Virus record (IMG/VR): IMGVR_UViG_3300027861_000181
Span: 1 to 25,491 of that record
From: a virus
DNA length: 25,491 nt
Reading direction: 5' to 3' (one strand)
Shown here: piece by piece, positions 4,192 through 5,944 of the stretch
How positions within the stretch are numbered: position 1 is the first letter of the stretch
Layout: each line of letters starts with the position of its first letter
Notes under the pieces: generated by a model
Told to the model about the DNA's origin: nothing
The model's database searches: none
What the model saw: only the letters and a program-made list of their open reading frames with translations
Position numbers and translations under genes: made by a program

Positions 4192-4824
4192 CTATTTCGT
4201 AATTTTTATCGTACCACCTACCCCTCCAGTCGTATTCTTCCTCCAAACAGAATCCTGCATTATTGCACCATCAAGTTTAGCTCCAGTAAGATTAGTCCCA
4301 GTAAGATCAGCACCCCTAAGATCGGCACCCTTAAGATTAGCATGCCTCAAGTTAGCACCACTCAAGTTAGCACCCATCAAGTTAACATCCTCTAAGTAAG
4401 CATAAATCAAGCAAGCATCCTCTAAGTTAGTACCCTCTAAGTAAGCATCCTCTAAGTCAGCACCACGCAAGTCAGCACCACGCAAGTCAGCATATCTCAA
4501 GTTAGCACGAAACAAGTTAGCATTCCCCAAGTTGGCAACCATCAAGTAAGCATCCTCTAAGTCGGCACCCTTCAAGTTAGCGCAACTCAAGCAAGCATTC
4601 TCTAAGTAAGCACCACTCAAGTTAGCATTCTCTAAGTTAGCACCCCTCAAGTTAGCACCACTCAAGTCAGCATCCTCTAAGCAAGCACTCTCTAAGTTAG
4701 CATCAAACAAGTCAGCACCCCTCAAGTCAGCACCACTCAAGTTAGCACGAACTCCGCTTTCTTTATTACTCTGGAGCCACAGCTTATGTTTTTCTAGGAT
4801 TACTTTAAGTTCATCTTTAGTCAT
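4192..4824 (-). CDS. Pentapeptide-repeat protein (210 aa)
   Basis: After an N-terminal helix ([19 protein letters not shown]) the protein is about 33 tandem A-(D/N)-L-x-x repeats (residues about 27-190), e.g. [16 protein letters not shown], ending with a short polar tail. Such repeats fold into a right-handed quadrilateral beta-helix of about eight coils. Some family members mimic DNA and inhibit gyrase (Qnr, MfpA); others have no known role. The ATG at 4824 is supported by GAGGAGAAA and overlaps the stop of the 36-aa gene (ATGA). The 15-bp periodicity of the DNA is the coding of these repeats. The 5' end, with its ribosome site, is duplicated at 5906-5944. The target is unknown. Confidence 0.9.
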
Positions 4825-4836
4825 TCTGTTTCTCCT
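4798..4836. repeat. Direct repeat copy 1 (39 bp), 5' end of the pentapeptide gene
   Basis: A 39-bp segment covering the ribosome site, start codon and first codons (TKDELKVI) is repeated at 5906-5944 with two differences, both near the start codon. It marks one edge of the inserted/duplicated stretch 4837-5905. Confidence 0.9.
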
Positions 4837-4931
4837 CTTATCCATTGCAGGTCTTTAGTGAGCGCATCTCTTTTATTCATCAGCGTCTCAACAAGTTGTG
4901 TAAGCCGAGCGATCTCGTTGCGTTGTTCCAT
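4821..4931 (-). CDS. Small coiled-coil protein (36 aa)
   Basis: Reads [20 protein letters not shown] at the start and ends LQWIRGETE; a heptad pattern (I, L, L, V, L, M) suggests a short coiled coil. The ATG at 4931 lies 5 nt after the stop of the zinc-binding gene, whose end supplies GGGAG as ribosome site. Its stop overlaps the start of the pentapeptide gene (ATGA), so it is wedged into a fully coupled operon. Function unknown. Confidence 0.6.
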
Positions 4932-4936
4932 TTTTA

Positions 4937-5263
4937 TTAGGCTCCCATTAAGTGGGCTTTTATGAACTCTTTCAGTTCTTCGACGGTCTCGCATCTATCA
5001 AGCTCAAACGTCATAAAGTCGGCGCTTTCCTGAATTTCTTCGCGCTCATGCCTGTCGTTACGGCATGATGTGCATTCTGGGTTTCCATCTGGGCCGACGT
5101 TGTTTGTGAACTGGGTCTTGCACGACATGCACAGAGGCTTTGAGAAGTGCGCGGCGTCTCTCGCGGCGGCTCTGGATTTTCGTTCTGCCTCATGCGCTGG
5201 GCAAAGTTGCTTTCCATATTTTTGGGCTTCAAGCCTGCACCCATCGCGCTTGCATTGTGGCAT
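4937..5263 (-). CDS. Small cysteine-rich, probable zinc-binding protein (108 aa)
   Basis: Two cysteine clusters are visible. C4, C9, C21 and H24 come first; C46-x2-C49 and C65-x2-C68 form a zinc-ribbon-like pair. Between them is a basic, Ala/Arg-rich helix (residues 25-42). The C-terminus is acidic (TFELDRCETVEELKEFIKAH). The ATG at 5263 overlaps the stop of the preceding gene (TGATG); an earlier GTG is less likely. The gene is visibly richer in G+C than the flanking phage genes, suggesting transfer. A nucleic-acid-binding role is plausible but not shown. Confidence 0.7.
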   Translation of the reverse strand: MPQCKRDGCRLEAQKYGKQLCPAHEAERKSRAAARDAAHFSKPLCMSCKTQFTNNVGPDGNPECTSCRNDRHEREEIQESADFMTFELDRCETVEELKEFIKAHLMGA

Positions 5264-5499
5264 CACTCCACCGCCTTAATCATGCGGGGGAAGGCGACCC
5301 TGCTCTTGCAATCATCATCAGGGATCACAATTACCGTGAGATCCTTTCCGTCAGAAATAATTCCGGGCATCCCGTTGTTCTCCTCAAAAATCAGATCGTG
5401 GGTAATTTCGTAATAACCTTCCCGATCGGGGAATTTGCCGCGTCCGTCGTACTTCCACTTGCCAGTGGGTTTGAAGTAAAGAAATGTGCAATCTTCCAT
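5263..5499 (-). CDS. Hypothetical phage protein (78 aa)
   Basis: Begins MEDCTFLYFKPTGKWKYDG and contains the stretch FEENNGMPGIIS and VIVIPDDD. A beta-rich small domain with W, Y, G and PG turns, of a kind found in short accessory genes of tailed phages; no named family recognised. The ATG at 5499 lies 5 nt after the stop of the 29-aa gene and its stop overlaps the next start. G+C is higher than in the neighbouring phage core. Function unknown. Confidence 0.65.
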   Translation of the reverse strand: MEDCTFLYFKPTGKWKYDGRGKFPDREGYYEITHDLIFEENNGMPGIISDGKDLTVIVIPDDDCKSRVAFPRMIKAVE

Positions 5500-5504
5500 G
5501 TCGT

Positions 5505-5594
5505 TTATTCCCTGTCGCTGTTGATGTGGCAGTAGGCTTTGATAGGCATGGTTTGGTCTCCTTCGCTAAACATATTCTCCTCCATCTTATTCAT
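5505..5594 (-). CDS. Very small ORF (29 aa), possible coupling peptide
   Basis: Begins MNKMEENMFSEGDQT and ends YCHINSDRE. The ATG at 5594 overlaps the TGA stop of the chimeric gene (TGATGA). Two internal ATGs each have a ribosome site (GGAGGAG before M8, GAAGGAG before M16), so the true start may be shorter. It may act mainly to carry ribosomes to the downstream genes. Confidence 0.45.
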   Translation of the reverse strand: MNKMEENMFSEGDQTMPIKAYCHINSDRE

Positions 5595-5932
5595 CAGTTA
5601 ACATCCTCGAAGTAAGCGTCCTCTAAGTAAGCACCACTCAAGTTAACATCCTCTAAGTCGGCACCGCCAGCAAATGCCTTAGCCACATCGCCAGGACATG
5701 TACATCCTCTATCAGCGATGATGTGACCTCCAAGGCCGTGTGCGGCATCAGCACATTCAATAACAGCAGATAACCGAGGATAGCCAACCCCAGTTTGAAT
5801 CCGTGTAGTGCAGACACTACCAGGATCGATGCCCACTTTAACAATCTCTGCGCCATTTAGAATTAACTCCTGTGTTTGATCTGCGGTAACTACGTTACCT
5901 GCAATGATTACTTTAAGTTCATCTTTAGTTAT
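5594..5932 (-). pseudogene. Chimera: 5' of pentapeptide gene + GMP reductase slice + pentapeptide repeats
   Basis: The frame is open for 112 codons but begins at ATA where the homologous pentapeptide gene has ATG; the AAAGGAG site upstream is perfect. Residues 2-9 (TKDELKVI) equal the pentapeptide protein. Residues 10-92 resemble the middle of GMP reductase (GuaC, NADPH-dependent GMP to IMP): AGNVVT, GSVCTTR with the catalytic Cys (C41), [21 protein letters not shown] and PGDVAKAF. Residues 91-112 return to repeats ([15 protein letters not shown]...). The GMP-binding DGG turn is DRG (74-76), and G before PGS is D. Only part of the TIM barrel is present, so no enzyme activity is expected. A GTG at 5836 could start a shorter product. 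Similarity to E. coli GuaC is from memory but strong. Confidence 0.8.
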
Positions 5933-5944
5933 TGTGTTTCTCCT
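5906..5944. repeat. Direct repeat copy 2 (39 bp)
   Basis: The copy of 4798-4836, with two mismatches; one turns the ATG start into ATA. It lies at the 5' end of the chimeric gene directly after its hairpin leader, so the leader and 5' end were probably the original start of the pentapeptide gene. Confidence 0.9.

Follow-up and report, generated by a model that had tools for sequence, protein, structure and literature searches.

A GMP reductase gene fragment fused to pentapeptide repeats in a viral contig: a probable relic within an imported mosaic cassette

Introduction

How does about a quarter of a metabolic gene come to lie between the two ends of an unrelated repeat gene, and is the product of any use to a phage? 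This question is raised by a minus-strand open reading frame (ORF) at positions 5594–5932 of the virus record IMGVR_UViG_3300027861_000181, a metagenome-derived contig that we analysed over its whole length of 25,491 bases (the window). The frame joins the head of a pentapeptide-repeat gene to a slice of guaC, the gene for GMP reductase, and then returns to pentapeptide repeats. An earlier note on this DNA had explained the frame by joining at very short homologies that captured a fragment of a metabolic gene, and had placed that event in the contig's own pentapeptide gene. The first part agrees with our data, as the joints lie on short matches and a GuaC slice is present. The second does not: the slice and its right joint recur in a distant phage, 1.9 kb around the fusion is absent from the closest relatives, and DNA like that of a third phage lies inside that stretch. 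We consider it likely that the chimera is a relic within an imported mosaic cassette of about 1.9 kb.

The mosaicism of tailed phages by illegitimate recombination is marked by abrupt joins of unrelated sequences, and the joints that survive tend toward gene edges. Leader-mediated shuffling through elements made of a stem-loop and a leader (PeSL) is likewise an established idea.

Results

Read from an ATA codon at 5932, the chimeric frame has 112 codons; the GTG at 5836, which had been put forward as a possible start, does open a frame of 80 amino acids. Residues 7–93 match the GMP reductase profile NF003470 with an E-value of 2.7e-47 (profile positions 152–238 of 347) and residues 8–92 match PF00478 with an E-value of 1.3e-28, in keeping with the roughly 83 GuaC codons proposed for this frame. 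By these profile matches and an alignment of guaC genes, the slice spans 5655–5911 on the minus strand (about 84–86 codons), and it is the only GuaC-like match in the window. Its score of 161.6 bits on NF003470 (NF003470/TIGR01305, GuaC) stays below the curated cut-off of 397 bits for the whole protein. Residues 90–111 are pentapeptide repeats that score 19.7 bits on PF00805, slightly below the gathering cut-off of 20.2 bits; the slice does rejoin such repeats as the earlier note had it. This tail (5594–5665, minus strand), with the right joint at GGTGCCGACTT, was delimited by repeat comparison, the PF00805 match and the alignment to locus L088 described below.

The front of the frame is a pentapeptide-gene head, comprising a ribosome site and the first codons (5906–5944, minus strand). 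Its counterpart in locus L089 (298–338) is 97.6% identical to window positions 5946–5906, that is, at 40 of 41 bases. Because the sole mismatch falls inside the start codon, the ATA at 5932–5930 is best read as a mutated ATG, again as suggested before. The 39-bp direct repeat reported for the window is also real, with positions 4798–4836 and 5906–5944 identical at 37 of 39 bases. The description of this 5' end as occurring twice holds for the window but not beyond it: with up to three mismatches, a 27-base core of the head is found six times in the record of L088 and three times in the record that holds L087 and L089. The core was found neither in the records of L084 and L083 nor with a reversed-pattern control, and we regard it as the constant head of a pentapeptide gene family. 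A degenerate head pattern gave three stretches in two records, and the head pattern had no match in genome contigs.

The flanks of the fusion reveal a wider insert. A scan with the FG-GAP protein encoded next to it yielded four close relatives (L082, L083, L084 and L085), of which L085 ends short of the site. All three contigs that span the site (3/3) carry the FG-GAP gene, a stem-loop, the leader AATCTTGCTTTTATAAAGGAGAAACAAAATG and hsp20, and nothing of about 5930–4030. L082 and L083 hardly differ (99.99% identity over 15,726 bases), and both are 87–91% identical to L084 over most of their length (9–13% differing); we therefore count L082/L083 and L084 as two lineages. The order on the minus strand of the window is the FG-GAP-repeat gene (8423–6036; PF13517 match, 94–99% amino-acid identity in L082–L084), the insert, hsp20 (3996–3553; PF00011 match at 3.6e-18, 97–99% amino-acid identity in L082–L084) and clpS (3511–3170). 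L084 and the window are 96–97% identical over long shared blocks, and the insert flanks agree at 98–100% per 100 bases outside the leader (left flank, about 1 kb; right flank, 0.7 kb), with patches of 86–94% further out.

The window holds two copies of the hsp20 leader, against 0.01 expected. With up to three mismatches the records of L084 and L083 have one copy each, and those of L088 and L087 none. The left copy, AATCTTGCTTTTATAAAGGAG (5940–5960, minus strand), is the recipient's own and equals the leader of the relatives through AAAGGAGAAACA, 12 bases that are also present in the L089 pentapeptide head. Stem-loop A (5968–5990, minus strand; RNA fold z –2.9 for 5946–6000), which precedes this leader, is also the recipient's own and is present in L084, L082 and L083. 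Stem-loop B (4027–4055, minus strand; z –4.6 for 4010–4070) lies upstream of hsp20 on the inserted side, and a like element in L074 differs from it at 6 of 29 bases. The right leader copy (4004–4024, minus strand) resembles the L074 type more closely, as its T run and GAAAAC show, and window positions 4081–3985 are 85.9% identical to L074 7612–7710, a match that takes in the stem-loop, the leader and the start of hsp20. On these comparisons the chimera belongs to an insert of about 1.9 kb between two hsp20 leaders, and the relevant unit, at about 4025–5949, is bigger than the earlier note had it. The records of L084 (299,910 bases), L083, L082 and L087 gave no match to the IMPDH/GuaC family (PF00478); those of L004, L014 and L088 do match. 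A search for pentapeptide repeats, run without a positive control, was negative for L084, L083 and L082; the head pattern, positive elsewhere, gave no match in the records of L084 and L083.

The same fusion is found in L088, where six pentapeptide genes share the head and a GuaC slice lies between two of them. Across the right joint (GGTGCCGACTTAGAGGATGTTAAC) the L088 slice is 95.4% identical to window positions 5856–5641 over 216 bp. Both slices carry a D>E and the GIGPGS>GIDPGS change, and each has private changes (Q>R and G>R in the window, V>M and A>T in L088). The left joint differs: in L088 a spacer, ...AAGATGGCG, leads into the slice, whereas in the window a pentapeptide head does. The L088 frame has 65 codons from an ATG and no pentapeptide head, and only LEDVN follows GGAD. 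The earlier note had held that a homologue with the same chimera as an intact conserved gene would speak against its reading. A homologue does exist in L088, but since its left end, start and pentapeptide tail all differ, it is not a conserved gene. Among 16 loci with KAF.GADL-type DNA, one was a chimera (L088), 14 read as ordinary IMPDH/GuaC-like genes and one (L093) was unrelated. When viral contigs were scanned twice more with exact degenerate patterns, a procedure that may leave out records very near the window, no third copy of the fusion came up. Degenerate patterns over the exact window joints had no match in viral contigs; it was other patterns that found L088.

By its proteins, L088 resembles T4-type phages: the RNase H-like protein is 42–47% identical to those of Melnitz, HTVC008M and S-CAM3-type myophages, and PhoH is 50–52% identical to those of cyanophages and Cr30, and equally to that of a 42-kb Roseobacter phage. 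The PhoH proteins of L088 and of the L084 record share only 31% of their amino acids against 95% of nucleotides for the slice, which points to horizontal movement of the slice, and we thus take the fusion to be common to distant phages through horizontal transfer. The ribonucleotide reductase small subunit of the window itself is closest, among 20 matches listed, to those of GAP32-/RaK2-type jumbo phages (61–63% amino-acid identity), and the guanine-cytosine (GC) content of the window is 40.5%.

The insert is a mosaic of several sources. Beside the chimera lies a 39-bp spacer (5557–5595, minus strand) that is 100% identical over 39 bp to L089 794–832, where it precedes a frame at 839 read as folE-like. 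It is followed by 619 bp of foreign DNA (4914–5532, minus strand) with a GC content of 50%, 95.3% identical to L086, a small unrelated phage contig of 54% GC with frames read as RecA-like, SSB-like, YqaJ-like and helicase-like (SSB is annotated in relatives). This segment encodes a 78-amino-acid ORF (5263–5499, minus strand), taken from the ORF list and the L086 comparison, and a 109-amino-acid ORF with a GTG start (4937–5266, minus strand) that is 87% identical to L086 at the amino-acid level; the likeness ends within the first codons of the next L086 gene. Neither ORF had a match in the phage record collection, nor the longer one in bacterial genome contigs.

Next comes an intact pentapeptide-repeat gene of 210 amino acids (4192–4824, minus strand). 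The ATG of the shared head lies at 4824, the program-listed ORF begins further upstream at 4845, and the frame from 4845 matches PF00805 at 3e-56, with 186.9 bits over five stretches, above the gathering cut-off. It is about 74–82% identical in nucleotides, in the best pieces, to members of the family in L088, L087 and L089, and is probably an expressed, working cargo of the cassette. A last ORF of 35 amino acids (4072–4179, minus strand) ends in NPPQMPMM and a stop, resembling the GroEL C-terminus (NPGMGMM at the end of the L074 GroEL), and might be a groEL remnant, although this likeness is suggestive only. L074 has the order guaC–groES–groEL–hsp20 (GroEL also by PF00118, hsp20 by profile, groES by reading), and the records of L084, L083, L088 and L087 gave no GroEL match. 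The cassette may thus have come through a phage with groEL beside hsp20.

The joints share 12 bp at the left end of the insert, 6 bp (GTAATC) between head and guaC, and GGTGC.GACTT between guaC and the pentapeptide gene, up to 11–13 bp. Such short homologies between otherwise unrelated sequences are what illegitimate recombination leaves. For the right joint we compared the 80 best (loci L002–L081) from a scan of viral contigs that gave at least 600 stretches, 596 of which are relatives. The longest exact match between guaC and pentapeptide sequences (nine-sequence pool) covers the joint in 37 of the 80 genes; within 12 bases of it, 18 share 13 bp and 39 share 6–8 bp. The most likely mechanism is recombination at such short homologies, which are mainly ribosome-site and leader sequences; either template switching or the joining of broken ends could produce these joints.

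The same set shows where the slice comes from and what it has lost. Its matches lie in long guaC frames, 74 of 80 complete (348–421 codons) and six cut by contig ends, and 37 of 50,697 annotated phage records match it, the best labelled Salmonella (77%) and the best named as a phage at 57%. As the matches are abundant and intact among viral contigs, the slice is of the guaC type common there. It keeps SVCTTR; GIGPGS has become GIDPGS and DGGC has become DRGC. The cysteine of the conserved motifs in this region has a role in GMP reductase. The sites altered in the window slice, in GIGPGS, PQLS and DGGC, are intact in 80 of 80 guaC genes. The two slices differ by four amino-acid-changing and five silent substitutions, compared with 19 and 272 in 28 similarly close pairs of intact guaC genes (Fisher P 0.0026; the pairs are non-independent). 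The constraint that acts on guaC is gone from the slice, although nine changes cannot prove full neutrality. With an ATA start, a left end and tail that differ in L088, and only about a quarter of the enzyme left, the most likely status of the chimera is that of an unused relic whose product is either absent or of no benefit; given that remaining quarter, GMP reductase activity is not expected.

Discussion

We propose that the chimera arose in several steps. In a phage with tandem pentapeptide genes of constant head, a short match, GGTGC.GACTT, would have served to link part of a phage guaC gene to a pentapeptide gene, with illegitimate recombination or template switching as the probable cause; the joint itself is present in two phages. 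The differing left joints suggest at least one further joining event at the left of the slice, which now follows a pentapeptide head in the window and an inter-gene spacer in L088. The 619 bp of L086-like DNA and the intact pentapeptide gene may then have come to lie beside the fusion, their order of arrival being our reconstruction. Finally, as the empty sites of the relatives suggest, the cassette would have entered before hsp20. Its left end would have joined at the ribosome-site match of 12 bp, AAAGGAGAAACA, and its right end within the hsp20 leader, where the entry would have brought in an L074-like leader with its own stem-loop.

Other explanations fit parts of the evidence. The slice could be the remnant of a resident guaC that was mostly lost in the window lineage, since guaC and hsp20 are frequently close together in related phages: of the 80 guaC loci, 37 include hsp20 in the stretch retrieved (upstream of guaC in 29; with guaC upstream of hsp20 in eight, three of them within 180 bp), and the right leader resembles that of L074 with its guaC–groES–groEL–hsp20 order. 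However, both nearest lineages lack the slice and the insert at this site, and in L088, a 26-kb record (fragment) without an HSP20 match, the slice sits with pentapeptide DNA. We regard a resident guaC in this genome as unlikely, though the reading may hold for a donor instead. Still less likely, in our judgement, is a single event in this genome by which its resident pentapeptide gene took up a piece of guaC. The short matches at the joints and the two pentapeptide heads would suit it, but the slice and right joint in the distant L088 largely contradict it, the entire region is missing in the closest relatives, and both slices hold derived substitutions in common.

A functional new gene, with pentapeptide repeats capping a segment derived from GuaC, seems to us a highly improbable reading of the chimera. 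The open frame, the ribosome-site-like sequence upstream and an amino-acid-changing rate (pN) below the silent rate (pS) would favour it; the ATA start, the short L088 frame lacking the pentapeptide head, the changes at sites intact in every guaC gene compared and the absence of about three quarters of the enzyme do not. Least of all do we credit an assembly artefact. The contig is metagenome-derived and has repeats at both ends of the insert, yet the exact matches at the joints, about 6–12 bp, are short for assembler confusion, and the slice–pentapeptide fusion is found again in a second contig that has substitutions of its own; for these two reasons misassembly is unlikely.

Several observations weigh against an imported relic. 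The window, L084 and the other records are contigs, so a guaC-free record does not show a guaC-free phage. The whole cassette was found in no other record, and the insert strings near 5556–5530, 4910–4878 and 4170–4072 had no match among the collected loci. Recombination between the leaders could also have removed the insert from the relatives; we set this aside, as it needs two independent identical losses (in L084 and in L082/L083, with the same empty joint) and the right leader has L074-like differences of its own. The reading frame is open in both slice copies and pN (0.028) is below pS (0.103); four or fewer changing substitutions among nine would have P 0.051 under neutrality, and past selection is possible. 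The nearest guaC, L027, is only 87% identical in DNA over codons 8–92, with none closer, and the nearest four genes (L027, L032, L034 and L035) read GGAGCCGACTT at the right joint, without the full 11-bp match. Because of these four, and as the match covers the joint in 37 of the 80 genes and 39 share only 6–8 bp, the right-joint site is favoured without being unique; the true donor guaC would not be among the sequences found.

The case is a variant on already known phage mosaicism. As in the general model of illegitimate recombination the joins are abrupt; what differs is that intermediate scraps are still visible and that a joint can be traced through two distant phages. The S-PM2 paper also proposes foreign DNA gain by illegitimate recombination (PMC4503421). 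The insert also resembles a PeSL-type cassette, as it is bounded by a stem-loop and leader upstream of a gene, with recombination in these elements: stem-loops A and B, both leader copies and ribosome sites stand at its edges. In contrast to PeSL elements, the leader is not dispersed, with one copy in the 300-kb L084 record and one in that of L083. PeSL elements also hold an early promoter; here a single sigma-70-like site was found against 3.9 expected by chance (phage-specific promoters fall outside the pattern). GMP reductase has been noted in a pelagimyophage deep ecotype (PMC7029224). Phage-borne GMP reductase of this kind matches the source type of the slice, and intact guaC is common in viral contigs, whereas the window keeps only about a quarter of the gene, in fusion with repeats unrelated to it. 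The intact neighbour gene and the chimera tail are akin to phage PF00805 proteins, but here these form a tandem family whose 5' head is constant and whose units are separated by other pieces, as in L088. In a full-text literature search, no publication on this pentapeptide array or chimera surfaced among the matches listed.

Phage mosaics are usually met after selection has cleaned them. Here empty sites, a filled site, a second state of the scrap in another phage and relatives of several pieces are at hand, and the steps and homology lengths can therefore be read almost directly. It would follow that phages swap ready-made gene scraps at very short shared sequences. For annotation, a GuaC match in a phage contig may be a relic and not a metabolic gene.

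The L088 stretch 6852–10855 is a tandem pentapeptide array with Ala-rich small ORFs, a 121-amino-acid ORF and a 50-amino-acid ORF between its units. L087 3557–4267 is a pentapeptide gene with the in-frame tail IYAATIEYSTKYGEDSVRKSSLSFKESMTSDFI, possibly a second scrap fusion; the same tail is a separate small ORF in L088 (9026–9178), which had no match in phage records. One might speculate, and we hold it rather doubtful, that tandem pentapeptide genes with identical heads are a recombination hub in T4-type phages, where each head, a ribosome site with about 27 bases, would be a landing site that traps DNA scraps of co-infecting phages between the units, and where pieces of the array and scraps spread to distant phages via matching gene leaders. 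L088 (six heads, the GuaC slice and unrelated small ORFs), L087 (the tailed gene) and the window would then be three snapshots of this process.

Some further observations concern the surroundings of hsp20. guaC, hsp20 and clpS, with groES–groEL in L074, are often neighbours in viral contigs. The leader ATCTTGCTT..AAAGGAG, which mostly follows a stem-loop, is repeatedly found upstream of phage hsp20 genes, its motif being on the plus strand in 33 of 119 loci (overlapping loci counted), and the same leader type precedes groES in L074, near 5670–5690. An RNA thermometer was considered for this conserved leader and rejected, as four leaders fold at only –1.5 to –3.3 kcal/mol with no thermometer-like structure. 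In the window, a ClpX-like gene (8492–9703, by reading) and the ClpS gene (3170–3511, PF02617 match) are both near hsp20, and the phage may redirect host protein quality control. The large protein encoded at 9704–12331 is 84% identical in amino acids to that at L084 5934–8717, with a differing stretch near 11.2–11.5 kb; the other proteins compared between the window and L084 are better kept, at 97–99.8%.

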